In this document: one piece after another, positions 8,691 through 36,471 of the stretch
How the letters are laid out: each line of letters starts with the position of its first letter
How positions within the stretch are numbered: the first letter of the stretch is position 1
Made by a program: the position numbers and the translations under genes
NCBI RefSeq assembly: GCF_008360935.1
Contig: NZ_SRXO01000024.1
Span: forward strand, 17,322-81,321
Origin: Siccirubricoccus phaeus
GTDB lineage: Bacteria > Pseudomonadota > Alphaproteobacteria > Acetobacterales > Acetobacteraceae
DNA length: 64,000 nt
Reading direction: 5' to 3'
Notes under the pieces: generated by a model
Database searches by the model: none
What the model saw: only the letters and a program-made list of their open reading frames with translations
What the model was told of the DNA's origin: nothing

Positions 8691-9737
8691 ATGAGCCTTC
8701 GTCTGTCCGGCCTCCGCCACGCCTATGGCGGGCGGGAGGTGCTGCGCGGCATCGACCTCGAGGTCGGGCGCGGCGAGATCCTTTGCCTCCTCGGCCCCTC
8801 CGGCGATGGCAAGACCACCTTGCTGCGCCTGGTGGCCGGGCTGGAGCCCCTGCAGGCCGGCCGGATCGAGCTGGGCGGCCAGGTGGTGGCGGAGCCGGGG
8901 CGGGAGGTGCCGCCGGAGCAGCGCCATGTCGGCTTCGTCTTCCAGGATTACGCCCTTTTCCCGCATCTGACGGTCGCCGAGAACATTGCCTTCGGCCTGC
9001 ACCGCACCCCGCGCGGGGAGCGCGCCTGGCAGGTGGCGGAGGCGCTGGCGCGGGTGGGGCTGGAGAGCTACGCCAAGGCCTGGCCGCACATGCTCTCCGG
9101 CGGGCAGCAGCAGCGCGTGGCCCTGGCCCGCGCCTTGGCGCCCCGCCCGCAGGTGGTGCTGCTGGACGAGGCCTTCGCCAGCCTGGATGCCCGCCTGCGC
9201 GAGCAGGTGCGCGACGACACCCTGCATGTGCTGCAAAGCGCCGGCATCCCCGCTTTGATCGTCACCCATGATGCGGAGGAGGCGATGTTTCTCGCCGACC
9301 GCATCGCCCTGATGCGGGCCGGGCAGGTGGTGCAGCTCGGCACGCCGGAGGAGCTGTATCTCCGCCCCGCCGAGCCCTTCGTCGCCACCTTCCTCGGCGA
9401 GGTGAATCGCCTGCCGGCGCGGATCGCCGGCGGGCAGGCGGAGACCCCGCTCGGCCCCCTGCCGGCCCCGCCCCTGCCGGAAGGCCCCGCCCAGCTCCTG
9501 CTGCGGCCGGAAGGCGTGCAGGTATTGCCGGAGGGGGAGGGCGCGCCGGCCGAGGTGGAGGCCTGCCGGCTGCTCGGCGCCACCACCCTGGTGCATCTGG
9601 CGCTGGCGGATGGCGCCGGCGGGGTGCTGCACCTGCATGCCCGGCTGCCGCCCGGGCTGGCGCTGACCCGCGGGCAGAAGGTGCGGGTCCGGATGGATCC
9701 CGAACGCGCCTTCGTATTTCCGCCCCCGGCACCCTAG
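8691..9737 (+). CDS. ABC transporter ATP-binding protein, Fe3+/spermidine (FbpC/PotA-like) type
   Basis: A 348-residue ABC ATPase with a C-terminal TOBE-like domain, the arrangement seen in FbpC and PotA importer subunits. Motifs in order: Walker A GPSGDGKTT at 35-43, Q-loop FQDYALFPHLT, signature LSGGQQQR near 134, Walker B VVLLDEAFASLD near 152-163, and the switch His in VTHDAEEA. Position 4 of the Walker A loop is Asp rather than the usual Cys or Ser. There is no permease or binding-protein gene beside it, so its substrate is unknown. It lies between scpB and tatB, where a tatA gene is often found in related genomes. Confidence 0.88.
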   Translation: MSLRLSGLRHAYGGREVLRGIDLEVGRGEILCLLGPSGDGKTTLLRLVAGLEPLQAGRIELGGQVVAEPGREVPPEQRHVGFVFQDYALFPHLTVAENIAFGLHRTPRGERAWQVAEALARVGLESYAKAWPHMLSGGQQQRVALARALAPRPQVVLLDEAFASLDARLREQVRDDTLHVLQSAGIPALIVTHDAEEAMFLADRIALMRAGQVVQLGTPEELYLRPAEPFVATFLGEVNRLPARIAGGQAETPLGPLPAPPLPEGPAQLLLRPEGVQVLPEGEGAPAEVEACRLLGATTLVHLALADGAGGVLHLHARLPPGLALTRGQKVRVRMDPERAFVFPPPAP

Positions 9738-12686: not shown

Positions 12687-13139
12687 TCAAGAGGATCTGG
12701 GCTGGCCGAGTACCCGCCCCGCGATGAAGGAGAGGATGCGCTGCCCGCATTCCGCCAGCGGGTGCTGGATGGCCTGGTTCTGCCCGATGGGCCGGCCGAA
12801 CATCACGCGTTCCCGGGCATAGCGGGCGGCACGGTCCAGCGCGTCCTGGCCGATGCCGCCGCCATGCCGCGCGACGCCGTGCATGACGAGCGCGGCTGCC
12901 GTGACGCCGAGCCCCGCCCCGCCGAATTCCTGCGGCATGGTAACGCCGAGCCAGCCGCCCTCGGCCATGGCCTGGTGGAATTCGCGCGGGAAGCGCGCTT
13001 CCGCCTCGCAGTCGCGCCAGTACTCGTCGCCGAAGCGCCGCACCGTGCTGGCGACGCCTTCGATGCTGTCGTGCTGTTCCGGCGTCAGGCCGAAATCCGC
13101 GGGTCCTCCTCGGCGCTTTGCGGCAAGGTGCTTCAGCAA
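12687..13139 (-). pseudogene. acyl-CoA dehydrogenase remnant with internal deletion
   Basis: The frame encodes an acyl-CoA dehydrogenase N-terminal domain (FPREFHQAMAEGGWLG and MPQEFGGAGLGV, then MHGVARHGG). At about residue 96 it jumps directly to a C-terminal-domain segment (GQDALDRAARYARERVMFG, then RPIGQNQAIQHPLAEC). The middle beta domain and the first C-terminal helices, well over 100 residues including the FAD-binding region, are absent. After LAEC the sequence stops matching the family. At 150 residues against a usual 380-400, it cannot be a working enzyme. The frame is still open across the junction, so the deletion is in-frame or recent. Confidence 0.8.
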
Positions 13140-13218: not shown

Positions 13219-14607
13219 TCACGCGACGAGTGCTGGCCGCCTCTCCCGCCAGGGCGTCGCCTTCTCATAGGCGTCGCCTGCTTTCAGGACGGTCGCCTCG
13301 TCGAACAGCTTGCCGACGATCTGCAATGAGAAGGGCATCCCCTCCTCGTTGAAGCCCATGCAGAGCGCCAGCGCCGGGTTGCCGCCGACATTGAAGGCCG
13401 TGGTGTAGCCGACCTTGGTGAAGAGGCTTTCCGGCGGCTGCGGTTGCAGCTTCTTCGCCGGCTCACCTGCCGGCAGCATCATCAGGTCCACCTCCGCGAA
13501 GGTGGCCTGCATCGCCCGCGCCAGTTCCGTGCGCAGGCGCATGGCCTGGATATAGTCCTCCGCCCGGATCAGCCCGCCGGCGATGATGCGGTAGCGCAGG
13601 CTGGCGCCGAACAGCTCCGGCCGCTGGCGCAGCTCCGGGCCGTGGATGGTGTAGAGCTCCGCCATGGCGATGATCTTCTTCGCGTCCTCATAGGCGCGCA
13701 GCTTCGGCAGCTCCACCGGGCGGACGCTGGCGCCCATGGCGCGGAAGACGTTCAGCGCGGCGTCCAGCGCTGTGCGGGTGGGGGCGGAGGGCGGCGCCTC
13801 CTCCTCCAGCCAGCGATAGGGCACGCCGATCGTGAGGCCCTTCACCTCGCCGGTCAGGGCGGCGGTGTAGTTAGGCACCGGCAGGTCCACGCTGCCGGGG
13901 TCGCGCGGGTCGAAGCCGGCGACGCAATTCATCAGGATGGCGAGGTCCTCGCTGGTCCAGGCCAGCGGCCCCGCATGGTCGTGGGAGAAGCAATTGGGCA
14001 GCACGCCGCGGCGGGAGACGCGGCCATAGGTTGGCTTGAGGCCGGCGATGCCGTTGGCCGCCGCCGGCCCGCGGATGGAGCCGCCAGTATCCGACCCCAT
14101 CGTCCCCAGCACCATGCCGGCCGCGATGGAGGCGCCGGAGCCGGAGGAGGAGCCGGCCGGGTCCTTGTCCAGGTCCCAGGGGTTGCGGCAGGGCGGGAAC
14201 AGCACGTCCCAGGAGGGGCCGCCATGGGCGAATTCCCAGGTGGCGGACTTGCCCAGCAGCACGCCGCCGGCGGCGGCGAGTCGCTGTTGCGCGTCGCAAT
14301 CCTCGGCCGGGACGTAGTCGGCCAGCGTCTTCGACTGCGCCGTGGTGCGGATGCCCTTGGTCTCGAAAATGTCCTTCAGGTTGTAGGGGATGCCGTGCAG
14401 CTTGCCGCGGTAATTGCCGGCCATGATCTCGGCCTCTGCCGCCTTGGCCTCTTCCAGGGCGCGTTCCCGCGTCAGGGCGACGAAGCTGTTGAGCTCCGCA
14501 TCCACCGCATCGATGCGGGCGAGGCAGGTGTGCAGCAGCTCCACCGGCGAGAGGTCGCGCGTGGCGATGCGCCGCGCGGCCTCGGCGATGGTGAGAAATT
14601 CCGCCAT
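13219..14607 (-). CDS. amidase signature (AS) family protein, AtzE/GatA-like
   Basis: A 462-residue amidase-signature hydrolase. The Ser-cisSer-Lys catalytic triad is visible as K78 in YNLKDIF, the Gly/Ser-rich DPAGSSSGSG run at 149-158, and the nucleophile S177 in GSDTGGSIRG. ATG 14607 was chosen because MAEFLTIAEAARRI is the usual family start. An AtzG-like small gene ends four bases upstream and may be its obligate partner, as AtzG is for AtzE. The substrate is unknown; context with binding proteins and flavin monooxygenases suggests catabolism of an imported amide or amide-containing intermediate. Confidence 0.88.
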   Translation of the reverse strand: MAEFLTIAEAARRIATRDLSPVELLHTCLARIDAVDAELNSFVALTRERALEEAKAAEAEIMAGNYRGKLHGIPYNLKDIFETKGIRTTAQSKTLADYVPAEDCDAQQRLAAAGGVLLGKSATWEFAHGGPSWDVLFPPCRNPWDLDKDPAGSSSGSGASIAAGMVLGTMGSDTGGSIRGPAAANGIAGLKPTYGRVSRRGVLPNCFSHDHAGPLAWTSEDLAILMNCVAGFDPRDPGSVDLPVPNYTAALTGEVKGLTIGVPYRWLEEEAPPSAPTRTALDAALNVFRAMGASVRPVELPKLRAYEDAKKIIAMAELYTIHGPELRQRPELFGASLRYRIIAGGLIRAEDYIQAMRLRTELARAMQATFAEVDLMMLPAGEPAKKLQPQPPESLFTKVGYTTAFNVGGNPALALCMGFNEEGMPFSLQIVGKLFDEATVLKAGDAYEKATPWRERRPALVA

Positions 14608-14611
14608 GACC

Positions 14612-14812
14612 CTATGCCTTTCGCGCAAAGGTGGCGGCGTCGAAGACATGCGCCGGCTCATCCGCCTGCGGGCGGTCGCGGCAGATGCGGGCGATCATCA
14701 CCTCCAGATGGCGATAGGCGGAGAGCAGCTCCGCCTTGTATTCCGCCGGCAGGTCGGAAAGGCCGGCCTTGGCGGCCAGCACCTTCAGCTCTTCCTCCGT
14801 GGTCTCGGCCAT
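14612..14812 (-). CDS. AtzG-like (DUF4089-type) small amidase partner
   Basis: A 66-residue protein that resembles the DUF4089/AtzG small subunits which form GatCAB-like complexes with amidases. Its end, EPAHVFDAATFARKA, matches the conserved acidic-P-x-x-V/F tail of the family by eye. It begins MAETTEEELKVLAAKAGL at 14812 and ends with TAG at 14612, four bases before the amidase start. It lies between two amidase genes, and the one immediately downstream is the likelier partner. The family assignment rests on short length, context and the tail motif, so it is less certain than for the amidases. Confidence 0.75.
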   Translation of the reverse strand: MAETTEEELKVLAAKAGLSDLPAEYKAELLSAYRHLEVMIARICRDRPQADEPAHVFDAATFARKA

Positions 14813-14829
14813 GGCGTCCTTCCTTTCTC

Positions 14830-16158
14830 TCAGGCGAACAGGGTCTTGCGCGCCCAGTCGGGTTCGGTGTCGACCACCGGCGCGCAGGCCTCGGCGATCT
14901 CGATCAGCGCCGCATCGGCGAAGCGCGGGCCGACGAGCTGGATGCCGACCGGCAGGCCACGGGCGCTGCGGATGCAGGGAATGCCGAGGCAGGGCACCTG
15001 CAGCAGCGTCCAGATGCCGTTGAAGATGGCGTCGCCGGTGGTGTGCAGCCCTTCCGGCGCATCGCCGGGGGAGGCCGGGGTGAGCACCGCATCCAGCTTC
15101 GGGCCGAACAGCGCGTCGAAGACCGCGCGGCACTGGTCGGCCAGGGTGTAGGCGGCGCGCAGCTTCCCGGCATCGAATTGCGCGCGGGCCTCGACCCGCG
15201 CCTTGATGTCGGGCGGGGTGATGTGCGGGGCGGCGAGGACTTCCGGCAGGAAGGCGCCGGCGCCCTCATAGGCGGCGATCAGGTCGCGCGCCGCCGCCAT
15301 GCCGTCGAAGGCGAGCGGCAATGTCAGCTCCTCGACGATCGCGCCCGCCGCTTCCAGGCGCTGCGCCGCGGCTTCCAGCGCCGCGACGCCGGCGGGCTCG
15401 ATATGCCGCCAGACGGGGGATTTGCACATTCCGATGCGCAAGCCCTTCACGCTGCGCTTCTTCCCGCCCAGGCCGGGCAGGCGGAAGCATTCCGCCACCA
15501 GCCGCAGATCGGCGACGCAGCGGCCGTACCAGCCGACGGTATCCAGCGTGATGCTGCTCATCCGCGCGCCCTCCCGGCTGACCAGGGACCAGGAGGGTTT
15601 CAGCCCGTAGATGTTGTTGAAGGAGGCCGGGCGGATATGCGAGCCGCCGGTCTGGGTGCCGAAGCCGAGCGGCACCTGGAAGTCGCCCACCGCCGCGCCG
15701 GAGCCGGAGGAGGAGCCGCCCGGCGTGTGCTTCGCATTGAAGGGGTTGGTGCTCAGCGCCTTCCGCCCGCCGGCGGCGAATTCCACCGTATCCGTCTTGC
15801 CCAGGATGAGCGCGCCGGAGGCCCGCACGATGCCGACGCAGGCGGCATCCCGCCCTGGCTGCGAGTCCTCGTAGATGGGCGAGTTGTGCGTCGTCGGCAT
15901 GTCCGCCGTGTCGATCACATCCTTCACGCCGAAGCCCAGGCCATGCAGCCCGCCCATGGGCCAGCCGGCGGCGGCGCGCTTGTCCAGCTCCCGCGCCCGC
16001 TTGAGCGCGAGATCGGGGTCGAGGAAGAGCCAGGCCTTCACCACCGCGTCCCGCGCCGCGATGCGGGCGAGGCAGGAACGGGTCAGCTCCTCCACCGAAA
16101 GCTGGCGGTCGCGGATCAGCGCGGCCGCCTCGGCGGCGGTGAGTTCGCAGGGTTGCAT
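14830..16158 (-). CDS. amidase signature family protein (second amidase)
   Basis: A 442-residue amidase with K79 in GFGVKDVIDTA, the HTPGGSSSGSG run at about 144-154, and nucleophile S173 in QTGGSHIRPASF. The residue after the nucleophile is His instead of the usual Ile/Val, as in a large subgroup of the family with TGGSxIRPA. ATG 16158 overlaps the stop of the upstream binding-protein gene (TGATG). It is more diverged from the neighbouring amidase than expected for a recent duplicate, so the two probably act on different substrates. Confidence 0.87.
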   Translation of the reverse strand: MQPCELTAAEAAALIRDRQLSVEELTRSCLARIAARDAVVKAWLFLDPDLALKRARELDKRAAAGWPMGGLHGLGFGVKDVIDTADMPTTHNSPIYEDSQPGRDAACVGIVRASGALILGKTDTVEFAAGGRKALSTNPFNAKHTPGGSSSGSGAAVGDFQVPLGFGTQTGGSHIRPASFNNIYGLKPSWSLVSREGARMSSITLDTVGWYGRCVADLRLVAECFRLPGLGGKKRSVKGLRIGMCKSPVWRHIEPAGVAALEAAAQRLEAAGAIVEELTLPLAFDGMAAARDLIAAYEGAGAFLPEVLAAPHITPPDIKARVEARAQFDAGKLRAAYTLADQCRAVFDALFGPKLDAVLTPASPGDAPEGLHTTGDAIFNGIWTLLQVPCLGIPCIRSARGLPVGIQLVGPRFADAALIEIAEACAPVVDTEPDWARKTLFA

Positions 16159-17756
16159 CAGGCGATCTCCACGGTGGTCAGATCCTGCTGCCAGCTCTGC
16201 GCCTGCACGAAGCCCTTCACCCGCGGCGACATGGCGCGCGGGTTCAGGTCATGCACGATGAAGGCCCAGAGCGCCTGGTCCACGCAGGCAGCGTGCAGCT
16301 CCGCCAGCAACATGTCCTGCTTCTCCGGGTCGAACTCCACCTCCGCCCGGCTGGCCAGGTCATCCACCTTGGGATCGGCGAAATAGCCCCAATTGGTGCC
16401 GACCGGCGGGTTGCGCCTGGACCAGGTGACGTCGATCAGCGCGGAAGGCTCGGCCGAGCCCAGGGAATTGTTCAGCGCATGCATGCCGCGATTCTCCGGC
16501 GCCGCGGCGCCGCTGCGGCGGCGGCCGCGCAGCGTCTCCCATTCCAGCACTTCCAGCCGGACATTGATGCCGATCTCGGCCAGGCCCTGCTTGATCGCCT
16601 CGTTCATCGGCAAGGGCTGCATCTGGCCGCTGCCGCTGGTGGAGATCAGCACCGTGGCGTTGCAGGGGTTGCGCGGGCCGTAGCCGGCGGCCTGCAACAG
16701 CTTCTTCGCCTCGCGCGGGTCGTGGCGCAGCTCGAAGCCCGGCTTGCCGAACCAAGGGTCGTTCGGCAGCGTCAGCCCCTTGGCCGCCTGCGCCGTGCCG
16801 TCCAGCAGCGCCACCAGCCCGTCGCGGTCCAGGCCGAGATTGATCGCCTGGCGCACCCGCACATCGCGGAAGGGGCTGTCCGGCAGGCAGCTCAGCAGAT
16901 AGGGCCAGATATGCGGGTAGGGGTTGGTGACGATCTTCATGCCGGCATTGCGCAGCCGCGGGATCATGTCCGGCGAAGGCGCCTCGATCCAATCCACCTG
17001 GCCGGAGAGCAGGGCCGCACCGCGGGTCAACGGGTCCGGCATCGGCATGACGATCAGCCGGTCGCATTTCGGGATGCGGGCGCTGTCCCAGTACTCCGCA
17101 TTGCGGACATATTCGATGCGCTCGCGCGGCACCACCTTGTCGAACTTCCAGGGGCCGGTGCCGGAGGGGTTGAGGGCGAAGCGCGCCCAGCTTCCGCCCA
17201 GCTCCTTCCACCGCGCCGGCGAGGAGAAGAACACGCTGACCAGCTTGTAGGGCAGGCTGGCCACCGGATCCTTGGTGATGATCTCCACCGTGCTGCCATC
17301 CACCGCGCGGTAGCTGGCGATGGGGGCGACGAAGGTGGCGGCCTGCGCCGCCTGGGCGCTGTCATATTGCGGCGCTTCCTTCTTCATCACCTTGTCGAGG
17401 TTCCAGACGACCGCCTCGGCGTTGAATTCCGAGCCGTCGTGGAATTTCACCCCCTGGCGCAGCCTGAAGGTCCAGCGGTTGCGGTCGGCAGGATCGGTGG
17501 ACCAGCTTTCGGCGAGGCCGGGGCGGATGCGCGCCTTGCGGTCGCCATGGGAAAGGTCCCAGTTGCTCAGCCCGTCATAGCCGGTGATGCCGCCGAAGCG
17601 GATGCCCTCCGCGCCCTGGCTGGGCTGGCCGGTGGTGGTGGGGATGTCGGCCGCGGTCATGCCGACGCGCAGCACCTTCTCGCCCTGCGCCCTGGCGGGC
17701 AGGGCGGGGATCAGGGCGGTGGCGGTCAGGCCCGCGGTGAAATGGCGTCGCAGCAT
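16158..17756 (-). CDS. ABC transporter substrate-binding protein, family 5 (DppA/OppA-like)
   Basis: A 532-residue secreted periplasmic binding protein. A signal peptide is seen at residues 1-23 (MLRRHFTAGL... ending PARAQ), followed by the SBP_bac_5 fold with WTFRLRQGVKFHDGSEF near 100 and RVRQAINLGLDRDGL in the second half. The family binds peptides, nickel, opines, glycosides and other organics. No cognate permease or ATPase gene is nearby, so it must share a transporter encoded elsewhere or act in sensing. It heads a unit with two amidases and the AtzG-like gene, overlapping the first by one base. Confidence 0.9.
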   Translation of the reverse strand: MLRRHFTAGLTATALIPALPARAQGEKVLRVGMTAADIPTTTGQPSQGAEGIRFGGITGYDGLSNWDLSHGDRKARIRPGLAESWSTDPADRNRWTFRLRQGVKFHDGSEFNAEAVVWNLDKVMKKEAPQYDSAQAAQAATFVAPIASYRAVDGSTVEIITKDPVASLPYKLVSVFFSSPARWKELGGSWARFALNPSGTGPWKFDKVVPRERIEYVRNAEYWDSARIPKCDRLIVMPMPDPLTRGAALLSGQVDWIEAPSPDMIPRLRNAGMKIVTNPYPHIWPYLLSCLPDSPFRDVRVRQAINLGLDRDGLVALLDGTAQAAKGLTLPNDPWFGKPGFELRHDPREAKKLLQAAGYGPRNPCNATVLISTSGSGQMQPLPMNEAIKQGLAEIGINVRLEVLEWETLRGRRRSGAAAPENRGMHALNNSLGSAEPSALIDVTWSRRNPPVGTNWGYFADPKVDDLASRAEVEFDPEKQDMLLAELHAACVDQALWAFIVHDLNPRAMSPRVKGFVQAQSWQQDLTTVEIA

Positions 17757-17810
17757 GTCTCAACCCCCGGCGGTGACGTGGGGCCGTGCGTCGCGCTGGT
17801 GCTCCTCTGC

Positions 17811-17959
17811 CAGAGCGGCGTCCGATCGGGGTGGACCCGCAGCCGCGGGTCCCACCCGATCGGGCACAAGCTGCTCTGTACCTTTGTTGTCTGGGCGATC
17901 CTTGTTCGGGCGAGGCCGCCCGAACGAGGATCGCCCCGCAGCATGGGGGGCCATGCTGC
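17811..17959. repeat. three consecutive long hairpins between a flavin monooxygenase gene and a binding-protein gene
   Basis: The 216-bp gap holds three strong palindromes in a row. The first, 17822-17863, has 19-bp arms with 17 matches (CCGATCGGG ... CCCGATCGG) and an outer CAGAGC/GCTCTG extension. The second, 17893-17936, has 20-bp arms with one mismatch around an AGGC loop (GGGCGATCCT ... AGGATCGCCC). The third, 17938-17959, has perfect 9-bp arms, GCAGCATGG / CCATGCTGC, around GGGG. Both flanking genes are on the minus strand, so the array could uncouple or attenuate their transcription. It could equally be composite mobile repeat DNA. Confidence 0.8.
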
Positions 17960-17972
17960 ACCGCGCAATGGC

Positions 17973-19286
17973 TTATTGAAACAGGCGGCTCTTTGGCCGC
18001 GGCAGGCCGAGATGCTCGCGCAGGGTCCGGCCGGTGTAGTCGGCGCGGTAGAGGCCGCGCTCCTGCAGGATGGGCACGACCATGTCCACGAAATCGTCGA
18101 AGCCGCCGGGGAAATAGGGCGGCAGCACGTTGAAGCCGTCGCAGGCGTAGCTGTCGAACCATTCCTGCATGGTGTCGGCGATCTGCACCGGCGTGCCGCA
18201 GACCACCCAATGGCCGCGCGCGGCGCCGGCCAGGCTGAACATGTCCCGCCATGTCATGTTCTCCCGCCAGGCCTTGGCCAGCATCGCCTTGGCGAAGCCG
18301 TGGGAGGTGTCGGGCAGGGGGAAGTCCTTCGGCACCTTCTCATCCAGCGGGAAGCCGGAGACATCCATGCCCATGCGGGCGGCGAGCATGGAATTGGCAT
18401 TGGCCGGGTTCACGAAGGACTGCAGCAGGTTCAGCTTGTCCCGCGCCTCGCGCTCGGTGCGGCCGATCACCGGCATCATGCCGGGCAGCACGGCGATTTC
18501 CGAGGCGTGGCGGCCATAGGCCGGCATGCGTTCCTTCAGCGCACGGTAGCCGGATTGCGCCTCGCCCATATCCTGCACCACGGCGAAGACCACATCGGCG
18601 GTGCGGGCGGCCAGCTTCAGCCCGGGCTCGGAGGAGCCGGCCTGGAGGATGATGGGCTGGCCCTGCGGCGTGCGGCTGCTGGAAAGCGGTCCCTTCACCT
18701 TGAAGAACTTCCCCACATGGTTCAGCGGCTTCACCTTGGCGGGGTCGATGTACTGGCCGGTTTCCACGTTGCGCACCACCGCGCCGTCATCCCAGCAATC
18801 CCAGAGGCCGCGGACGACATCGACGAATTCCTCCGCCACCTCGTAGCGCGCATCATGCTCCGGGTGGATGCGGCCGAAATTCTCCGCCACCTTGCCGCCC
18901 GAGCTCGTCACCGCGTTCCAGGCCGCGCGGCCGCCGGAAAGATGGTCGAGCGAGGCGAACATCCGCGCCACATTGTAGGGCTCGGCATAGGTGGTGGAGG
19001 CGGTGGCGCCGAGGCCGACATGCGTCGTCGTCGCGGCCAGCGCCGCCAGCATGGTCAGCGGCTCGAAGCGCGCGGCGAAGCTGGGGTGCATGCCCGGTTC
19101 GCTGGCGAGGTTGTCGCCGAGGAAGATGAGGTCGAATTTCCCCCGTTCCGCGATGCGGCCGATCTCCTGGATGACGGAAAGATCCTCGAAGCTCTGCGCC
19201 GCGCCGGGGTAGCGCCAGCCGGCGATGTGGTTGCCGGTGCCGAGGACGAAAACGCCAAGATGCATCTGGCGTGGGGAAGGGGACAT
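17973..19286 (-). CDS. LLM-class flavin-dependent monooxygenase, NtaA/SnaA/DszA type (1)
   Basis: A 437-residue member of the bacterial luciferase-like family that uses FMNH2 from a separate reductase to oxygenate substrates such as nitrilotriacetate, dibenzothiophene sulfone or alkanesulfonates. Visible are the start MHLGVFVLGTGNHIAGWR, the family block LSGGRAAWNAVTS, SRTPQGQPIILQAGSSEPG, and the C-terminal DGFNVLPPYFPGG. ATG 19286 was chosen over upstream starts; ATG 19265 is the alternative. It is divergent from the second monooxygenase gene (start 19439), so 19287-19438 should hold both promoters. No flavin reductase gene is close by. Confidence 0.9.
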   Translation of the reverse strand: MSPSPRQMHLGVFVLGTGNHIAGWRYPGAAQSFEDLSVIQEIGRIAERGKFDLIFLGDNLASEPGMHPSFAARFEPLTMLAALAATTTHVGLGATASTTYAEPYNVARMFASLDHLSGGRAAWNAVTSSGGKVAENFGRIHPEHDARYEVAEEFVDVVRGLWDCWDDGAVVRNVETGQYIDPAKVKPLNHVGKFFKVKGPLSSSRTPQGQPIILQAGSSEPGLKLAARTADVVFAVVQDMGEAQSGYRALKERMPAYGRHASEIAVLPGMMPVIGRTEREARDKLNLLQSFVNPANANSMLAARMGMDVSGFPLDEKVPKDFPLPDTSHGFAKAMLAKAWRENMTWRDMFSLAGAARGHWVVCGTPVQIADTMQEWFDSYACDGFNVLPPYFPGGFDDFVDMVVPILQERGLYRADYTGRTLREHLGLPRPKSRLFQ

Positions 19287-19438
19287 CTTCTCGTTCACTC
19301 CATCGGCCGTCAAGGCGACGGCGCCGATATGACAGGCGGTGGCGCCGGCCTGCGGGGCGCCGCCGCCCGCCAAGCAATTCGCATGCCTCGGCACGCCGAT
19401 TGCATTCCATCCCGGCCTCCGGACCAAGGCAAGACGGT

Positions 19439-20788
19439 ATGGGCGCGCCGCAGCGGCAGATCAGGCTTGGCGTATCGGCGATCGGCATGGGCTACCACAT
19501 TGCCGCCTGGCGGCACCCGGATGCCTCTGCCGGCGGCAATATGGAGCTGGGGCATTTCGTCCGCGCCATCCATGCGGCCGAGCGTGGGCTGTTCGACATG
19601 TTCTTCCTGGCCGATGGCGTCGGCATCAGGATGTATGACGAGCCGCCGGGCGCCCTTTCCCGCTCCTCGAAGAACGTGCAATTCGAGCCGCTGACGCTGC
19701 TTTCGGCGCTGGCGATGGTCACCTCGCGCATCGGGCTGATCGCCACGGCGAGCACCACCTGGAACGAGCCCTATCACATCGCTCGGAAATTCGCCTCGCT
19801 GGACCATATCAGCGGCGGCCGTGCCGGCTGGAATGTGGTGACCAGCGTGACGGCACAGGAAGCCCGCAATTTCGGCCGCGAGGCACCGCCCGACTACGAC
19901 AGCCGCTACGACCGTGCCGCCGAGTTCGTGGAGGTGGTGCGCGGATTGTGGGACACGTGGGAGGACGATGCGTTCGTCCGGGACAAGGCGTCGGGGATCA
20001 ATTTCGACCCCGCCAAGCTGCATGTGCTGAACCACCAGGGGAAGCATTTCACCGTCGCCGGCCCGCTGAACGTGGCGCGCACGCCGCAGGGCGCCCCGGT
20101 GCTGGTGCAGGCCGGCGCCTCCGACCCGGGGCGGGAGCTGGCGGCGGCGACGGCCGATGTGGTCTACGCCGCGGCGCAGAGGCTGGAGGACGCGCAGGCC
20201 TATTACGCCGACGTCAAGCGCCGCATGGCGAAATACGGCCGCCAGCGCGAATCGCTGAAGATCATGCCCGGCCTCATGGCCATCCCCGGCCGCACAAGGC
20301 AGGAGGCGCATGACCGATACGAGATCCTGCAGGAGCTGATCCACCCGGTCGTCGGGCTGGCGGCGATCGCCGGCTCGCTCGGCGACCTCTCCGCCTTCCC
20401 GCTGGACGGGAAGGTGCCGGAGCCGACCAATCCGCGCATGCTGAGCCGGGCGAAGATCCTGCTGGACATGGCGCGGCGGGACAACCTCTCGATCCGCCAG
20501 CTCTACCTCGCCATCGCCGGCGGCAACGGCCACCGCACCATCATCGGCACGCCCGCCGACATCGCCGACGCGATGGAGGAGTGGTTCACCCAGGGGGCCG
20601 CGGATGGCTTCAACATCCTGCCGCCCTGGCTGCCCGGCGGCCTGGAAGAGGTGGTGGACCAGGTGGTGCCGGAGCTGCAGCGCCGCGGCCTCTACCGCAC
20701 CGCATACGAGGGGCACACGCTGCGCGATCTGCTCGGCGCCGACCCCGCCCCCAACCGCTACGCCCAACGCCGGAGTGCCGCCGAATGA
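19439..20788 (+). CDS. LLM-class flavin-dependent monooxygenase, NtaA/SnaA/DszA type (2)
   Basis: A 449-residue FMNH2-dependent monooxygenase, paralogous to its neighbours at 17973 and 22356. It has the ISGGRAGWNVVTS block (about residues 118-130), ARTPQGAPVLVQAGASDPG and the C-terminal DGFNILPPWLPGG. It starts with MGAPQRQIRLGVSAIG and ends in an ATGA overlap with the next binding-protein gene, so translation is likely coupled. The pairing of such enzymes with a family-5 binding protein suggests import of an organic sulfur- or nitrogen-containing compound followed by oxidative cleavage; this is inferred from context. Confidence 0.9.
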   Translation: MGAPQRQIRLGVSAIGMGYHIAAWRHPDASAGGNMELGHFVRAIHAAERGLFDMFFLADGVGIRMYDEPPGALSRSSKNVQFEPLTLLSALAMVTSRIGLIATASTTWNEPYHIARKFASLDHISGGRAGWNVVTSVTAQEARNFGREAPPDYDSRYDRAAEFVEVVRGLWDTWEDDAFVRDKASGINFDPAKLHVLNHQGKHFTVAGPLNVARTPQGAPVLVQAGASDPGRELAAATADVVYAAAQRLEDAQAYYADVKRRMAKYGRQRESLKIMPGLMAIPGRTRQEAHDRYEILQELIHPVVGLAAIAGSLGDLSAFPLDGKVPEPTNPRMLSRAKILLDMARRDNLSIRQLYLAIAGGNGHRTIIGTPADIADAMEEWFTQGAADGFNILPPWLPGGLEEVVDQVVPELQRRGLYRTAYEGHTLRDLLGADPAPNRYAQRRSAAE

Positions 20789-22356
20789 GACCCCTTGCCA
20801 CCATCGCCGCCCTGTTGCTCCTCGCGACACCCGCCGCGGCGCAGGAGCTCCGCATCGGCATGAAGGCGGCGGTGGACAGCGCCGACCCGCACCTCACCTA
20901 CACCCCCAACCGCAATGTCGGGCTGCATGTCTTCGAGACGCTGACCGATCTCGACCCGACCCTGCGGCCGATCCCGAACCTCGCCTCCTCCTGGCGCGCC
21001 ATCGATGAGCTGACCTGGGAATTCAAGCTGGTGCCCAATGCCCGCTTCCATGACGGCACGCCCTTCACCAGCGAGGACGCCGCCTTCTCCATCCGCCGGG
21101 TGCAGAGCGTGCAGGGCGCCCGCACCTATGCCAGCGCGGTGCGCAACGTCATCGGCATCGAGACGCCGGACCCGCACACGCTGATCCTGCGGATGCGCGC
21201 ACCGACGCCGATGCAGCCGCACCACATCGCCAGCGTCGGCATGGTCTCCGCCCGCGCCGCGGCGGAGGCGGCGGAGGGCGATTTCAACGGCGGCCGCGCC
21301 GCCATCGGCACCGGCCCCTATCGCTGGGTGCGCTGGACGCCGGGCGCCGATGTGGTGCTGGAACGTGCGGACACCTGGCGCGGCACGCCGGAGCCCTGGC
21401 AGCGCGTGACCTTCCGCAACATCCCCAACGACAGCGCCCGCGTCGCCGCCCTGCTCGCCGGCGATGTGGATGTGGTGGACACCATTCCCGCCGGCCTCTA
21501 CCAGCGGGTGCGGGAGAGCGACCGCACCCAGCTCATCTCCACCGACAGCATCTTCACCCATTGGCTGTTCATGGACAGCATGTCGCCGCGCATCGCCAAT
21601 GCGCTGGGCGCGGATGGCCAGCCCCTGCCGCAGAACCCGCTGCGGGACCAGCGGGTGCGGCAGGCGATGAGCCTCGCGATCAACCGCACGGCGCTGGCCG
21701 AACGCGCCATGGAAGGCGGTGCCAGCCTGGCCGGGCAGGTGGCCTCGCCGGGGCTGATCGGGCATGATCCCAGCACCCCGCCGCTGCCCTACGACCCCGC
21801 CCGGGCTCGCGCCCTGCTAGCCGAGGCCGGCTATCCGCAGGGCTTCACCCTGAACCTGCAATGCACCGCGGACCGCTTCGCCGGCGATGCCCGCACCTGC
21901 CAGGCGATCGGCCAGATGCTGACCCAGGTGGGCATCCGCGCGAAGATCGAGGCGCTGCCCATGTCCATCTATCTCCGCCGCGGCACGCAATCCGCGCCGG
22001 GCGGGGAGCCGGAGATGTCGGCGCATCTCTCGATGTACGGGTCGAGCCTCGGCATCGCCTCGGAGACGCTCACCAGCCTGATCCGCACCATCAACCGCGA
22101 CCTCGGCCATGGCGGCTGGAACCGCACCCGCTATTCCAACCCGGAGCTGGACCGGCTGCTGACCGTAGCAGACAGCACCTTTGACGACGCGGCGCGGGAG
22201 AAGGCGATCCAGGCCGCCGCCCATTACGCGGTGGGTCAGCAGGCGCTGATCCCGATCTTCTTCGTCCGCATCTCCTGGGGTATCCGCCGCGGCTTGACCA
22301 TGGTGCCGCGAGCGGACAGTTTCACCATGGCGACCACGGTGCGGGTGACCCAGTGA
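20785..22356 (+). CDS. ABC transporter substrate-binding protein, family 5 (second)
   Basis: A 523-residue periplasmic binding protein with a signal peptide (MRPLATIAALLLLATPAAAQ, residues 1-20) and the SBP_bac_5 fold: LASSWRAIDELTWEFKL, NARFHDGTPFTSEDAAFSI and RVRQAMSLAINRTALAERA. It overlaps the upstream monooxygenase (ATGA) and the downstream one (GTGATG), placing it in the middle of a three-gene operon. As with the first binding protein, no permease or ATPase lies nearby. The two binding proteins are too different in sequence to be recent duplicates. Confidence 0.9.
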   Translation: MRPLATIAALLLLATPAAAQELRIGMKAAVDSADPHLTYTPNRNVGLHVFETLTDLDPTLRPIPNLASSWRAIDELTWEFKLVPNARFHDGTPFTSEDAAFSIRRVQSVQGARTYASAVRNVIGIETPDPHTLILRMRAPTPMQPHHIASVGMVSARAAAEAAEGDFNGGRAAIGTGPYRWVRWTPGADVVLERADTWRGTPEPWQRVTFRNIPNDSARVAALLAGDVDVVDTIPAGLYQRVRESDRTQLISTDSIFTHWLFMDSMSPRIANALGADGQPLPQNPLRDQRVRQAMSLAINRTALAERAMEGGASLAGQVASPGLIGHDPSTPPLPYDPARARALLAEAGYPQGFTLNLQCTADRFAGDARTCQAIGQMLTQVGIRAKIEALPMSIYLRRGTQSAPGGEPEMSAHLSMYGSSLGIASETLTSLIRTINRDLGHGGWNRTRYSNPELDRLLTVADSTFDDAAREKAIQAAAHYAVGQQALIPIFFVRISWGIRRGLTMVPRADSFTMATTVRVTQ

Positions 22357-23726
22357 TGCCGAAGGACCTATCCCAGGCCGGCAAGCCGAAGCAGCTTCGC
22401 CTCGGCGTCTTCCTCTACACGCCGGGCAGCCATTCCGCCGGCTGGCGCCACGCCGATGCGGTGCCGGAGACGGACATGCAATTCCCCTGGTACGCCCGCA
22501 TGGCGTGCATGGCAGAGGCGGCGAAGATCGACTGCGTGTTCTTCCAGGACACGGCGGCGGTGAATGGCAGCGCCAACCTGGACGGCGCCGGCGCCAAGCG
22601 GCCGAGGACGGCGCGGCAGGTCTATCTGGAACCCGTCACCCTGCTGGCGGCGCTGGCGGCGGTGACGGAGCGCATCGGGCTGGTCGCCACCGCCACCACC
22701 ACCTATGGCAACCCCTACGATCTCGCCCGCCGCTTCGCCACCATCGACCATATCAGCGGCGGCCGTGCCGGCTGGAACCTCGTCACCTCCCAGGTCGAGG
22801 ACGAGGCCGGCAATTTCGGCTTCGACCGCCATATGGACCACGCGCTCCGCTACGAACGCGCCGGCGAATTCTGGGATGTGGTGACCGCCCTCTGGGATTC
22901 CTGGGAGGACGGCGCGCTGCTGCGCGACAAGGCGAGCGGCCATTACATCGACCCGGACAAGCTGCATTTCCAGTATCACGAGGGCAAGCATTTCCGGGTG
23001 CGCGGCCCGCTGAACCTGCCGCGCACGCCGCAAGGGCGGCCGGTGGTCTCGGAAGCCGGCTCCTCCGAGGCGGGGAAGGAGCTGGCGGCGCGCACCGCCG
23101 ACCTCATCTTCACCGCCCAGACCGTGCTGGAGGAAGGCCGCGCCTTCCGCGAGGATGTCCGCGCCCGCGCCGCGCGCCACGGCCGCGACCCGGACCATGT
23201 GAAGATCCTGCCCGGGCTGATGACCATCGTCGGCCGCACGGAGCAGGAGGCGCAGGACAAGCTTGGCGCCCTGCAGGCGCTGATTTCGGACGATGCGGCG
23301 ATGCGCCTGCTGGCGCGCCTCACTGGCGACCTCGACATCTACCAGTACGATCTCGACGGCCCGCTGCCGCCCCTGCCGCCCAGCAACGCCGCCAAGGCCA
23401 GGCAGCAATTGCTGATGGACCTGGCGCGGAAGGAGAACCTCACCATCCGCCAGGTGGCGCGCTACCTCGGCACTTCGCTCGGCCACCAGCTTCAGGTCGG
23501 CACCCCGGCGACCATCGCCGACCGCATGCAGGAATGGCTGGAGGGCGGGGCCTGCGACGGCTTCAACCTGATGTTCCCGCATTTCCCCGCCCCGCTCGAG
23601 GATTTCTGTACGCTGGTGGTGCCGGAGCTGCAGCGGCGCGGCATCTTCCGCAAGGAATACGAAGGGACGACGCTGCGCGAGCATCTCGGCATTCCGGTGC
23701 CGCCGAACCGCTACGCCATGGCATGA
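22356..23726 (+). CDS. LLM-class flavin-dependent monooxygenase, NtaA/SnaA/DszA type (3)
   Basis: A 456-residue paralogue of the two monooxygenases upstream, with ISGGRAGWNLVTS, PRTPQGRPVVSEAGSSEAG and DGFNLMFPHFPAP. The ATG at 22356 overlaps the binding-protein stop by one base; a GTG one codon earlier (22353) is an equally possible start. Three members of one family within 6 kb, each differing in the variable insert after the flavin site, point to either several substrates or successive oxidations of one compound. Confidence 0.89.
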   Translation: MPKDLSQAGKPKQLRLGVFLYTPGSHSAGWRHADAVPETDMQFPWYARMACMAEAAKIDCVFFQDTAAVNGSANLDGAGAKRPRTARQVYLEPVTLLAALAAVTERIGLVATATTTYGNPYDLARRFATIDHISGGRAGWNLVTSQVEDEAGNFGFDRHMDHALRYERAGEFWDVVTALWDSWEDGALLRDKASGHYIDPDKLHFQYHEGKHFRVRGPLNLPRTPQGRPVVSEAGSSEAGKELAARTADLIFTAQTVLEEGRAFREDVRARAARHGRDPDHVKILPGLMTIVGRTEQEAQDKLGALQALISDDAAMRLLARLTGDLDIYQYDLDGPLPPLPPSNAAKARQQLLMDLARKENLTIRQVARYLGTSLGHQLQVGTPATIADRMQEWLEGGACDGFNLMFPHFPAPLEDFCTLVVPELQRRGIFRKEYEGTTLREHLGIPVPPNRYAMA

Positions 23727-23754
23727 TGCGCGCGCACGCGAAGGGAGCCCCGGG

Positions 23755-24258
23755 ATGAGCGACACCGCGCCGATGGTGGCCGGCCTGTTCCATGTCGCGG
23801 TGAAGACCAACGACTTCGCCGCGACACTCGCCTTCTATGAAGGCATCCTCGGCCTCAGGAACGGCTTCCGGCCGGATTTCGGCTATCCCGGCGCCTGGCT
23901 CTACGTGCCCGTCGCGGGCGGCCCGGCCATATTGCACATCTATGCCGGCGGGCCGGCGCTGCTGCCGGACGGGGTGGCGCCCTCCGGCACCGCCGCCATC
24001 GACCATCTCTCCCTCGCCTGCCGCGGCTTCCATGGCTATGTCGCGCGGTTCCGGGCGGCGGGGCTGGAGTGGCGGGAATTCCTCGTCCCCGGCACCACCC
24101 TCTGGCAGCTCTTCGTCTACGATCCCTCCGGCGTGCAATGCGAGCTGACCTTCGAGGGGGCGGGGGAGGCCGGCCCGCCGCCGGACATGTCCCCCGGCCG
24201 CGCCTATGTTGCCGGCGCCGGCTTCTTCGACGCTGCCACCTACCCGAAACTGTCCTGA
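23755..24258 (+). CDS. VOC (glyoxalase/dioxygenase superfamily) protein
   Basis: A 167-residue protein with two beta-alpha-beta-beta-beta modules. Likely metal ligands are H13 in LFHVAVKT, H84 in AIDHLSLA and a Glu in VQCELTFEG near residue 130, which matches the spacing of the superfamily. The family includes dioxygenases, lyases and binding proteins, so the reaction cannot be named. It follows the last monooxygenase gene by 28 bases with a good AGGGAGCC ribosome binding site, and probably belongs to the same operon. Confidence 0.8.
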   Translation: MSDTAPMVAGLFHVAVKTNDFAATLAFYEGILGLRNGFRPDFGYPGAWLYVPVAGGPAILHIYAGGPALLPDGVAPSGTAAIDHLSLACRGFHGYVARFRAAGLEWREFLVPGTTLWQLFVYDPSGVQCELTFEGAGEAGPPPDMSPGRAYVAGAGFFDAATYPKLS

Positions 24259-28096: not shown

Positions 28097-28221
28097 CCAT
28101 CGCATCACGTTGACGTGAGCGCGAACTCTGTTGATTGGATGCCGGCGCCTCGAATGGGATCAAGCGGCTTGGTATACATCCCGGCCTGGGAGGCCCATCG
28201 GAGGGCGGAGTTGGAGAGCTG

Positions 28222-31044
28222 ATGCAGCGACCGGGCCTGGAGCCCAGCCCTGACGTGATGGCGCCGCCCTGGCGCATGGGCCCATTGCTGCTCGCGGTGA
28301 TCGTCGCCCTGCCGCTGCTGGTCGCCGCGGCCGGCGCCTGGCGGTCCTGGCAGGGGGTGTGGCGGGAAGCCCGGGTGGAGCTGGAGCGCAGCGCCGACGC
28401 GGCCGCGGAATACGGCATGCGCGTGCTGCTGGCCTATGCCCTGGCGGCACGCCAGATGGACGCGCTGGTCGCCGGCCTGTCCGATGCCGAAATCATCGAC
28501 CGCAGGACGGAGCTGCATGCGGCGCTGCAGCACCTGGTGGACGAACTGCCGCAGGTGGAGAATAGCTTCATCCTGGACCGCCACGGCGTGCCCCTGGTGG
28601 CCGCCGGGGAGGCGGAGGCGACCGAGGACAGCACCGCGGCGGGGCGCGACTTCTTTCAGGAGCTCCAGGCGGCGGACGCGCCGGAGCTCTATGTCAGCCG
28701 CCTGCATGCCGGGCCCTTCGATACCCAGCCCTTCTTCGCCGTCAGCCGGCGACGGACCCAGACCGGCAACCATTTGCCCCCCGGCAGTTTCGACGGCGTC
28801 GTCAACCTCTCCGTCTTCCCCGACCCGCTGGCCGAGGGGCTGCGGCAATTCGAGGCCTCGCCCGGCACCTCCATCGGCCTGCTGCGGGCGGATGGCGGGC
28901 TGCTGGTCCGCAGCGGGGCGCCGCTGCCGCCCGGCACGCTGCTGGCCCGGGCCGCCCCGGGGGAGGGGGAGGCGCGGCGCGTCAGCGCCAGCATCCGCGG
29001 CCCGGCCGGCCCGGGCCATATCGCCGCCACAAGGCTGGAGGGCTTTCCGCTCTTCGCCCTGGCCTATCGCCCGGATGCCGCCATCCTGCCGCTCTGGTGG
29101 CGGGAAGTGCTGCCGCAATTCGGCCTCGGCCTCACCGCCAGCCTCGCCTTGCTCGGCCTCGGCCTGCTGGTCCGCCAGCAGCAGGGGGCGCTGCTGGCGG
29201 CCAATGCCACGCTGGAAGCCAGGGTGGAGGAGCGCACCGCGGCGCTGCGCGAGGTGACCGACGCGCTCGATCTCTCCCCCAGCATGATCGTGGACCTCAA
29301 GGGCCGGGTGCTGCACTGGTCCGCCGGCTGCGAGCGGCTCTATGGCTGGACGCGGGAGGAGATCCTCGGCCGCAGGGCGCAGGACATCCTCGGCACCATC
29401 CTGCCGCCAGGCGGCATCCGCGCCGTCATCGCCGCAGTGCGGCGGGAGGGGAGCTGGCAGGGGGAGCTGCGCCAGCGCCGCAAGGACGGCACCCCCATCA
29501 TCACCGGCAACCATTGGACCTATCGCTACGACCCGCGCACCGGCCGGCCCAACGGCTTCGTCAGCACCCGGACCGACCTGACCGAGCTGCGCCAGGTGGA
29601 GCTGAACGTCGCCCGCAGCGAGGCCAGCCTGCGCCGGGCGCAGGAGGCGAGCGGCGTCGTCGCCTTCGAGATCGACCGGACCGGCTTGGTGGACACCGAC
29701 CCCGCTTTGCCGATGCTCTACGGCCTGCCGCATGGCGCGCCCTTCGACTTCGCCGCCATGCTCACCCGGGTGCATGCGGAGGATGTGATCCGGGTGGTGG
29801 AGGAGCATCGCCGCCTGGCCGTGGAAGGCGGCGCCTTCGCCCTCGAATTCCGCGTGCTCTGGCCGGATGGCTCGGAGCATTGGCTGCTCACCCGGGGCGA
29901 GGCGGAGCGGGATCCCGGCCAGGGCCCGCTGCCGGCCCGCATCCGTGGCGTCTGCCTCGACATCACCGCCCGCCACCGGGCCGAGGCGGCGCTGGCCGAG
30001 AGCGAGGAAAGGCTGCGCCTGGCGCAGGAGGCGGCGCGGCTCGGCACCTATGACTACGACTACCTGACCGGGCGGGTGACCTGGGACGGGCGGATGCGCG
30101 CCCTCTGGTCCCTGCCGGAGGGCGAGGCGGTGACCCGGCGCCGCTTCCTGGAGGCAATTCATCCGGAGGACCGGCCAGGCCGCCGGGCCGCGCTGCGGCG
30201 GGCCATGGCGGCGGGGGGCGACGGCATCTACCAGGTGGAGCTGCGCGTCATCGGCATCGCGGACAAGCGGGAGCGCTGGATCGCCGCCTCCGGCCAGCTC
30301 CGCTTCGTCGGCGACCGGCCGGTGCGGCTGGTCGGCATCGCCATGGACATCACCGCCCGCAAGGCCGCCGAGGCGCGCGGCCAGCTGCTGATGCGGGAGG
30401 TGGACCACCGGGCGAAGAACGCGCTCGCCGTGGTGCAGGCGGCGCTGCGGCTTTCCAAGGCGGAAAGCCCGACGGAGCTGGTGCGGATCGTGGAGGGCCG
30501 GGTGGCGGCCCTGGCCCGGGCACAGACCGCCCTGGCGCAGCGCCGCTGGGAAGGGGCGGAGCTGCGGCGGATGGTGGAGGGGGAGCTGGAGCCCTTCCTC
30601 AGCCCGGAAAGCGTCGGCGCGCCGCGCGCCCTGCTGGTCGGCCCGCCGCTGACCGTGCCGGCCTGGGCGGTGCAGCCGCTTTGCATGACCTTGCATGAGC
30701 TGGCGACCAATGCGGTGAAATACGGCGCGCTCTCGGCGCCGGGCGGGCTGCTGACGGTGAATTGGCGGCTGGACGAGAATGGCCGGGCGCTGACGCTGAT
30801 CTGGCGGGAGACGGGCGGGCCGCTGATCGTGGCGGCGCCGGGGCGGCGGGGCTTCGGTTCGCGCGTCATCCAGCAGACGGTGGAGGGGCAGCTCGGCGGC
30901 TCGCTGGAAAGGCTGTGGCTGGCGGATGGGCTGCGCTGCGAGCTGTGCCTGCCGCTGCGGCGGCAGGAGCCGGTGGAGGGCGGCGCCGCGGCGCGCCAGG
31001 GCGCGCCGGCCTGGCGGCCGCGGGCGGCTGTCGGGGCGCAGTAA
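28222..31044 (+). CDS. HWE-family sensor histidine kinase with extracytoplasmic sensor and three PAS domains
   Basis: A 940-residue membrane kinase. Membrane segments lie at about residues 20-41 and 297-318, bracketing a periplasmic sensor of about 250 residues of dCache type. Three PAS/PAC repeats follow (about 345-455, 465-590, 600-720), with the first and third easiest to see. The HWE core has phospho-acceptor H729 in EVDHRAKNALAVVQ, the N-box H825 in HELATNAVKYGAL and WRE near 862. These are the three diagnostic residues of the HWE family. ATG 28222 is preceded by TTGGAGAGCTG; an ATG 29 codons earlier is possible. No response regulator gene is adjacent. Confidence 0.9.
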   Translation: MQRPGLEPSPDVMAPPWRMGPLLLAVIVALPLLVAAAGAWRSWQGVWREARVELERSADAAAEYGMRVLLAYALAARQMDALVAGLSDAEIIDRRTELHAALQHLVDELPQVENSFILDRHGVPLVAAGEAEATEDSTAAGRDFFQELQAADAPELYVSRLHAGPFDTQPFFAVSRRRTQTGNHLPPGSFDGVVNLSVFPDPLAEGLRQFEASPGTSIGLLRADGGLLVRSGAPLPPGTLLARAAPGEGEARRVSASIRGPAGPGHIAATRLEGFPLFALAYRPDAAILPLWWREVLPQFGLGLTASLALLGLGLLVRQQQGALLAANATLEARVEERTAALREVTDALDLSPSMIVDLKGRVLHWSAGCERLYGWTREEILGRRAQDILGTILPPGGIRAVIAAVRREGSWQGELRQRRKDGTPIITGNHWTYRYDPRTGRPNGFVSTRTDLTELRQVELNVARSEASLRRAQEASGVVAFEIDRTGLVDTDPALPMLYGLPHGAPFDFAAMLTRVHAEDVIRVVEEHRRLAVEGGAFALEFRVLWPDGSEHWLLTRGEAERDPGQGPLPARIRGVCLDITARHRAEAALAESEERLRLAQEAARLGTYDYDYLTGRVTWDGRMRALWSLPEGEAVTRRRFLEAIHPEDRPGRRAALRRAMAAGGDGIYQVELRVIGIADKRERWIAASGQLRFVGDRPVRLVGIAMDITARKAAEARGQLLMREVDHRAKNALAVVQAALRLSKAESPTELVRIVEGRVAALARAQTALAQRRWEGAELRRMVEGELEPFLSPESVGAPRALLVGPPLTVPAWAVQPLCMTLHELATNAVKYGALSAPGGLLTVNWRLDENGRALTLIWRETGGPLIVAAPGRRGFGSRVIQQTVEGQLGGSLERLWLADGLRCELCLPLRRQEPVEGGAAARQGAPAWRPRAAVGAQ

Positions 31045-36358: not shown

Positions 36359-36409
36359 CCGAAGTATCCTCCCGTCTTGTCGGTTGTTGCCCAGGTCGTT
36401 GCCTGGTGT

Positions 36410-36434
36410 CCTGAAGCGGCTTCGCCGCTTCAGG
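36410..36434. repeat. perfect 11-bp hairpin upstream of the Bug gene
   Basis: CCTGAAGCGGC-TTC-GCCGCTTCAGG, an 11-bp perfect stem with a three-base loop, sits 52 bases before the Bug start on the minus strand and 3' of the enolase-superfamily gene. It may act as a terminator or processing site between them. The surrounding 36359-36506 holds no gene. Confidence 0.6.
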
Positions 36435-36471
36435 CTGTGCGATGCTCAGGGAATACGGCGACCCCCGCGGC

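Follow-up and report, generated by a model that had tools for sequence, protein, structure and literature searches.

The window described here is a stretch of 64,000 nucleotides from Siccirubricoccus phaeus, a member of the Acetobacteraceae (assembly GCF_008360935.1, contig NZ_SRXO01000024.1, here C17, positions 17322-81321), with a GC content of 71% in a genome of 6.55 Mb. Between positions 13219 and 24258 it carries an island of nine genes, most of which encode luciferase-like flavin monooxygenases (LLMs), family-5 solute-binding proteins (SBPs) and amidases of the amidase-signature (AS) family, and among these genes there is no permease, ATP-binding cassette (ABC) ATPase or flavin reductase gene. 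The initial annotation of this DNA recognized three LLMs, two SBP_bac_5 proteins and two AS-family amidases, and Pfam and TIGR03860 scores bear these classes out, the LLMs being Bac_luciferase proteins; the cut-off of TIGR03860 (NtaA/DmoA) is 279.7 bits, and all three LLMs exceed it. The features of the island are the following:

13219..14661, minus strand: amidase 1, AtzE/GatA-like, AS family (Pfam Amidase 323 bits; likely start 14607)
14612..14812, minus strand: AtzG/GatC-like small partner open reading frame (ORF), 66 codons and a stop, directly upstream of amidase 1
14830..16158, minus strand: amidase 2, AS family (Pfam Amidase 238 bits)
16158..17756, minus strand: SBP-A, family-5 solute-binding protein (PF00496 261 bits; Tat-like signal peptide by eye)
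17757..17972, minus strand: strong hairpin array in the interval between LLM1 and SBP-A (fold z-score -7.41)
17973..19286, minus strand: LLM1, flavin monooxygenase of the NtaA/DmoA family (TIGR03860 524.5 bits)
19287..19438, no strand: intergenic region separating the divergent LLM1 and LLM2 genes
19439..20788, plus strand: LLM2, flavin monooxygenase of the NtaA/DmoA family (TIGR03860 554.7 bits)
20785..22356, plus strand: SBP-B, family-5 solute-binding protein (PF00496 251 bits; Sec-type signal peptide by eye)
22353..23726, plus strand: LLM3, flavin monooxygenase of the NtaA/DmoA family (TIGR03860 551.5 bits)
23755..24258, plus strand: VOC/glyoxalase-like protein (weak match, PF00903 28.9 bits, cut-off 20.6)

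The open frames of all nine genes are intact. Several of the 5' ends first listed are overlong, the probable starts being 19286 for LLM1, 19439 for LLM2, 20785 for SBP-B and 14607 for amidase 1, and for this reason the divergent gap between LLM1 and LLM2 is about 150 bp. Three couplings are truly close, namely LLM2/SBP-B, SBP-B/LLM3 and SBP-A/amidase 2.

Comparison with relatives divides the island into two separately conserved modules and not one unit. Module A consists of SBP-A, amidase 2 as a variable member, the AtzG-like ORF and the AtzE-like amidase 1, and module M consists of LLM1 divergent from LLM2, SBP-B and LLM3. For this comparison 150 genomes of the family were searched with SBP-A and with SBP-B and the neighbourhoods of the matches were read; relatives were also scanned by tblastn with the window proteins and one of the genome's own transporters as queries, keeping matches that cover at least a quarter of the query, and diverged genes can escape such scans. 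The core of module A (SBP-A, the AtzG-like ORF and amidase 1) is present in all six loci with an SBP-A of at least 78% identity, the window included; in the same loci amidase 2 is found in four, and LLM1 adjoins in three. Module M is complete in the window, Siccirubricoccus deserti, Belnapia mucosa and Humitalea rosea, so that the conserved co-occurrence of LLM and SBP genes which the initial annotation proposed to look for does exist in the form LLM1/LLM2-SBP-B-LLM3. The two modules are joined in the window and in S. deserti.

The linkage of SBP-B to LLMs extends to less similar loci. SBP-B-like matches of at least 50% identity number 15; the window and S. deserti apart, 13 were read, one of which (L065) was set aside as too short, and an LLM adjoins SBP-B in eight of the 12 with usable flanks, Belnapia and Humitalea among them. 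One of the other four has an adjoining LLM fragment and another has an LLM about 6 kb off. Near SBP-B-like genes of about 42% identity no LLM was found (0/7 loci). A scan of the named genomes with LLM2 gave 79 loci, some being the same records as the SBP-B or SBP-A loci. All 11 with LLM2 of at least 76% identity have some family-5 SBP within 2.2 kb (within about 200 bp in ten), and SBP-B itself adjoins in eight. In the remaining 68 loci, at 44-60% identity, a family-5 SBP was matched in five, at 1.1 to 5.8 kb, several of these 68 loci being short, and a diverged SBP could have escaped notice.

Another genome of the same genus (G063) has module A and LLM1, and LLM2-SBP-B-LLM3 is absent at that place. 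Where the window has these three genes, G063 has an LLM fragment (its contig C308, 7360-7740) of 128 amino acids with 49% identity to LLM3, a divergence too great for it to be simply a stub of LLM3. Island genes recovered from G063 and S. deserti share 83-95% identity with their window counterparts, except for the small ORF, at 74% in S. deserti. The VOC protein noticed initially is present as a weak and marginal match; those related loci that were scanned with it by tblastn gave no match, and it was dropped as a pathway member, lying outside the conserved core.

Among themselves the three LLMs share 45-49% identity. Their closest relatives of solved structure are 7e36, YtnJ (334-345 bits), 3sdo and BdsA, all ahead of EDTA (ethylenediaminetetraacetate) monooxygenase. 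YtnJ is taken here to be the CmoJ protein of Bacillus subtilis, the operon of which includes an acetyltransferase and a family-3 SBP; unlike it, the island shows no such context. CmoJ participates in the dealkylation of S-alkyl cysteine (PMC10863075). Each LLM has a Thr, an Asn and a Ser at the spacing of T106, N135 and S139 of DszA, residues which in that enzyme are linked to the O2 pocket and to contact with the flavin; the mechanism proposed for DszA is an N5-hydroperoxide one (PMC11134501). Genome-wide, 25 LLMs of the NtaA/DmoA type exceed the cut-off, and seven of them have a family-5 SBP gene no more than 3 kb away (start to start) versus 1.1 expected, three of the seven being those of the window. 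Flavin-reductase candidates number six in the genome (three PF01613 and three PF03358), all on other contigs. No near copy of LLM1 was found on plasmids, none of the 1153 plasmid records with a match reaching 60% identity.

Amidase 1 is 34% identical to AtzE of pADP-1 and stays below the cut-offs of the AtzE models (NF006631, 265.7 bits against 461; TIGR02715, 256.4 bits against 425.75). In the alignment with AtzE of pADP-1 its catalytic Lys/Ser/Ser positions of the amidase signature are invariant. The small ORF before it had been called an AtzG-like partner. It is a real gene, since its substitutions against two relatives are mostly at third positions and it is kept in relatives, and its position is fitting, directly upstream of amidase 1 in all six SBP-A orthologue loci; it fails, however, the AtzG model PF13318, which gave no match to the window ORF at E 10 and none to five of its relatives at E 1, while AtzG of pADP-1 matched at 36.2 bits in the same run as the five relatives. 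Its identification as AtzG itself was rejected on this failure. In the reverse direction, a profile of the small ORFs trained on plus-strand loci only scores AtzG at 5.4 bits (E 1.8), and the corrected, iterated profile reaches AtzG marginally (11.6 bits, E 0.019; its open frame 13.2 bits, E 0.0059); at E below 0.01 the only other match in the window and pADP-1 frames is the ORF itself. The small ORF is likely to be distantly related to AtzG, and the most fitting description is that of a GatC/AtzG-like partner belonging to a branch of its own.

A class-wide search for amidase-1 homologues gave 29 loci, 12 of them with the amidase on the minus strand; the seed profile places a small ORF of this kind directly before the amidase in 13 of the 29, and two rounds of iteration raise this to 23. 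Three of the 29 (L188-L190), like L187, have the match following the amidase within one and the same frame, and three others have no match; in L187-L190 the amidase and the GatC/AtzG-like stretch apparently form a C-terminal fusion. Because the tested small ORFs of the window's lineage are missed by PF13318, such GatC/AtzG-like ORFs before alphaproteobacterial AS-family amidases may constitute an uncurated family. The arrangement resembles that of AtzG-AtzE (1-carboxybiuret hydrolase) and atzG-atzE-atzH in that a small partner ORF directly precedes an AS-family amidase, and differs in that amidase 1 is below the AtzE cut-off, the partner fails PF13318 and the island has no AtzD/AtzF-type gene. 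Some atzGE clusters include a monooxygenase and an FMN (flavin mononucleotide) reductase and others ABC transporters (PMC6219798).

Initially, the lack of transporter genes was taken to suggest an uptake route not yet described. In Humitalea rosea, however, a single locus combines a gene resembling SBP-A (50%) with DppB, DppC, two ATPases, a hydrolase of the isochorismatase family, an AtzG-like ORF (34%) and amidase 1 (47%), and continues with LLM1 (77%) divergent from LLM2 (81%), SBP-B (65%) and LLM3 (70%). Because this set adjoins a complete Dpp-type ABC transporter, the missing permeases of the island are no sign of a permease-free route. Likewise, a Rhodospirillales metagenome-assembled genome (MAG) combines LLM2 (79%), a second LLM, an isochorismatase, a family-5 SBP with DppBCDF, and an amidase. 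In the genome G006, SBP-A (58%) and amidase 2 (61%) are neighbours of DppFDBC and of another amidase, which is truncated by the end of the stretch; elsewhere in G006, SBP-B (57%)-LLM2 (74%) lies in divergent orientation to an LLM and DppBCDF. Judging from these loci, modules of this kind are accompanied in relatives by ABC transporters of the Dpp type. A permease-free route was rejected on this evidence and on the general surplus of SBPs in the genome itself. In the Humitalea locus the homologue of amidase 1, the small ORF, the isochorismatase-family hydrolase and the LLM module are joined, which favours the combination of oxidative and hydrolytic breakdown that the initial annotation had suggested.

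The surplus of SBPs is considerable: the genome contains 56 SBP_bac_5 matches, one of them partial, and 12 OppC-type permeases, all on contigs other than that of the island, and only 13 of the 56 SBP genes lie within 5 kb of such a permease. For family-5 SBP genes of this genome, standing apart from any permease gene is thus the normal situation. Its ratio of 4.9 SBP candidates per OppC-type permease is the fifth highest among 47 genomes of the family, whose median of 2.8 shows that a surplus is widespread there; these are the genomes with at least 20 SBP candidates out of 100 (the 53 with fewer were left out), the SBP figures are candidate numbers and not scored matches, and the OppC figures in some genomes are the best 59 candidates. 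An extreme case stands at C5:27059-43471, where nine tandem family-5 SBP genes are followed by one DppBCDF-type transporter.

SBP-A and SBP-B are away from permease genes yet related to SBPs that are linked to them. In a tree of 55 of the genome's own SBPs (the partial C1:500819 left out), 43 fall in three groups of 10, 9 and 24 members, and every group contains one and only one SBP-linked permease system. The group of SBP-A has nine further members, of which the sole permease-linked one is that of contig C53 (support 1.0), and SBP-B groups with the permease-linked pair of contig C7 (support 0.985; 0.989 for the nine-member group). In 500 permutations, with one representative for each of the 11 SBP-linked systems, the corresponding number averaged 20.6 and at most reached 37 versus the observed 43, none being as extreme; a caveat is that the third group, that of the C5 system, contains tandem duplicates. 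Permease similarity across relatives mostly agrees with this pairing: DppB and DppC of Humitalea best match those of C53 (56 and 64%, the next being 42 and 37%), as do the G006 permeases beside SBP-A/amidase 2 (80 and 77%), and the G006 permeases beside SBP-B/LLM2 best match those of C7 (71 and 74%). For the matching permease pair that the initial annotation proposed to locate elsewhere in the genome, the candidates are C53 for SBP-A and C7 for SBP-B. Contig C1 also has a homologue of amidase 1 (43%) next to an SBP from the group of SBP-A. The C53 permease genes are followed by those for a GH15 enzyme and a regulator. In the alignment of SBP-A with DppA, no clear dipeptide alpha-amine contact was seen by eye.

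The island is best read as a catabolic satellite, made of two separately inherited modules, for a small nitrogen- or sulfur-containing compound of amide type, and as one that would depend on shared transporters and on diffusible reduced flavin; the probability of this reading is put at roughly 0.55. SBP-A and SBP-B would be secreted and capture small solutes, which they would deliver to ABC transporters of the Dpp/Opp type whose genes lie in other parts of the genome; the most likely recipient is the C53 permease pair for SBP-A and the C7 system for SBP-B. The three LLMs of the NtaA/DmoA type would act in the cytoplasm, cleaving a C-N or C-S bond oxidatively with reduced FMN, supplied in trans by diffusion from the few reductases of the genome. 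The AtzG/GatC-like and AtzE-like pair, possibly as a complex, and amidase 2 would hydrolyse amide bonds to yield ammonia or a carboxylate, the order of these reactions likewise being presumed.

Several observations weigh against this scheme. The locus of Belnapia mucosa (L059) has module M and no match to SBP-A or an amidase, and three other genomes (G112, G024 and G090) have module A and no LLM match in the stretches read; because of these, one joint pathway is not proven, the amidases and the LLMs forming separable modules. The Humitalea SBP-A and amidase 1, at the identities given above, may be paralogues of those in the window. As to the transporters, no ATPase gene was found by DppD/DppF queries and Pfam in 9.5 kb around the C53 pair (C53:73000-82500), which means that a further partner in trans would be needed. 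The permeases near LLMs in G028, G103 and the Rhodospirillales MAG resemble another system of the genome (C52, 172.5-181 kb) and not C7 or C53. Two further permease pairs, on C52 (159 kb) and C51 (146 kb), are off the tree because they have no family-5 SBP within 5 kb, and they could also be hubs; the surroundings of the latter (C51:143500-152000) gave a DppB/DppC-like pair and, by the queries used, no family-5 SBP or ATPase in 8.5 kb. The tree itself is one FastTree run with midpoint rooting, and its group of 24 members, which holds only the C5 system, has a modest support of 0.781. Finally, the DszA residues were mapped onto the LLMs by spacing only, without the DszA sequence.

The strongest competitor holds that two unrelated catabolic units stand side by side, one for uptake and hydrolysis of an amide and the other with flavin monooxygenases acting on another substrate, for example an organosulfur compound. 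It draws on the separate occurrence of the modules just described and on the hairpin array, which separates LLM1 from SBP-A in the window. It is nevertheless doubtful, since both the window and S. deserti have the modules joined, Humitalea carries a diverged SBP-A/AtzG-like/amidase 1 set next to module M, and the Rhodospirillales MAG brings together LLM2, isochorismatase, a family-5 SBP with DppBCDF, and amidase. It is also conceivable that the island is degenerating, that is, that transporter genes like those in Humitalea were once present and have been lost, the SBPs and enzymes being partly non-functional. G063, with an LLM fragment in place of LLM2-SBP-B-LLM3, the absence of amidase 2 from two of the six loci and the acyl-CoA dehydrogenase fragment flanking the island would fit such decay, yet nine intact frames, the high identity of the G063 and S. 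deserti copies (the small ORF of the latter apart) and the distance of SBP genes from permeases, which is the rule in the genome, make it unlikely. Very improbable is a role of the orphan SBPs as sensors or periplasmic signalling carriers and not as partners of an importer: membrane genes are lacking nearby, and orphan SBPs of the Bug family with unknown membrane partners are on record (PMC11452294), but SBP-A and SBP-B group with permease-linked SBPs and sit in catabolic clusters, and the island showed no gene for a sensor; a PAS/HWE histidine kinase gene lies about 4 kb outside (28135-31044).

With the catabolic satellite preferred to these alternatives, the island itself is of less interest than the pattern seen across the genome, by which its lack of a transporter is explained. 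A wider, tentative proposal is that this genome scavenges by plug-ins: three ABC transporters might serve 9, 10 and 24 scattered family-5 SBPs as hubs, and the spokes might be inherited with their own degradation enzymes, so that, with a binding protein and enzymes acquired but no transporter, the cell could gain a new nutrient. The island would then be one plug-in, with a new oxidative-hydrolytic route via the AtzG-like/amidase pair and the three flavin monooxygenases. With transporters shared in the way preferred above, the notion of an operon without a transporter is replaced by a testable rule leading from an orphan binding protein to the transporter it uses; if it is right, the SBP groupings would allow partners to be assigned to dozens of orphan family-5 SBPs here and perhaps family-wide, and the gene neighbours of each SBP would point to the compound imported. 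The LLM/SBP-B module and the AtzG-like/amidase pair are also defined targets toward a new route for the degradation of nitrogen- or sulfur-containing amides.

Parts of this picture are already in print, namely SBP-LLM operons (EDTA), the linkage of AtzGE with monooxygenases, and shared Dpp permeases; the new detail is the scale, which seems unusual here, and the pairing. The EDTA catabolic operon of Chelativorans sp. BNC1 includes EppA, which is taken here to be a family-5 SBP. The operon comprises the EppA ABC transporter and EmoA/EmoB (PMC7312458), and the island is like it in that an FMNH2-dependent monooxygenase of the NtaA/DmoA type is co-encoded with a periplasmic binding protein for a small nitrogen compound. 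The island differs in having amidases and no permease, ATPase or reductase genes, and the EDTA monooxygenase is not the closest relative of its LLMs; its identification as an operon of the EDTA/NTA (nitrilotriacetate; emo-epp) type was rejected on the absent reductase and transporter and on this distance. In Pseudomonas aeruginosa the SBPs DppA1-A5 serve one DppBCDF permease, one of them not complementing (PMC4206461). Several SBPs per permease are predicted here also, but in groups of 9, 10 and 24 instead of five, some of them beside catabolic genes. Orphan TctC (Bug) receptors of Bordetella show a large surplus without nearby membrane partners, and shared partners have been proposed for them (PMC11452294). 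Those belong to the TTT family and the present ones to ABC systems, for which a likely partner can be proposed from the tree and the relatives. In the open-access literature nothing was found on ABC transporters in Siccirubricoccus genomes, and the joint themes of NTA-type monooxygenase, luciferase-like monooxygenase, SBP and amidase yielded only work on fluorinated sulfonates in Gordonia, which is no proof that such reports are missing from print.

The island is flanked by genes for a seryl-tRNA synthetase, an acyl-CoA dehydrogenase fragment and an acetate kinase. The fragment is an N-terminal one of 150 amino acids (window 12687-13139), and it looks like a remnant because a 397-amino-acid ORF of S. 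deserti matches 83 of its residues at 81%. Upstream of the island, at 8691-9737 and beside Tat genes, there is a gene for an ABC ATPase that has TOBE domains. The hairpin array at 17757-17972 is, by alignment, about 120 bp longer than its counterpart in G063 and S. deserti, and the fold z-scores of the interval in two relatives are 0.48 and -0.57. A dispersed repeat was considered for it and rejected, as the genome gave one match and the window only the array itself. Elsewhere in the window a second catabolic-looking cluster (35399-41800) comprises a TctC receptor, two enolase-superfamily enzymes and a 2-hydroxyacid dehydrogenase; at 40346-41800 it also includes an AS-family amidase, a third one, which the initial annotation leaves unmentioned. 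Further on, at 48507-51215, a protein of 902 amino acids, the first 250 residues of which have no Pfam match, carries old-yellow-enzyme and pyridine-redox domains that start near residue 257.

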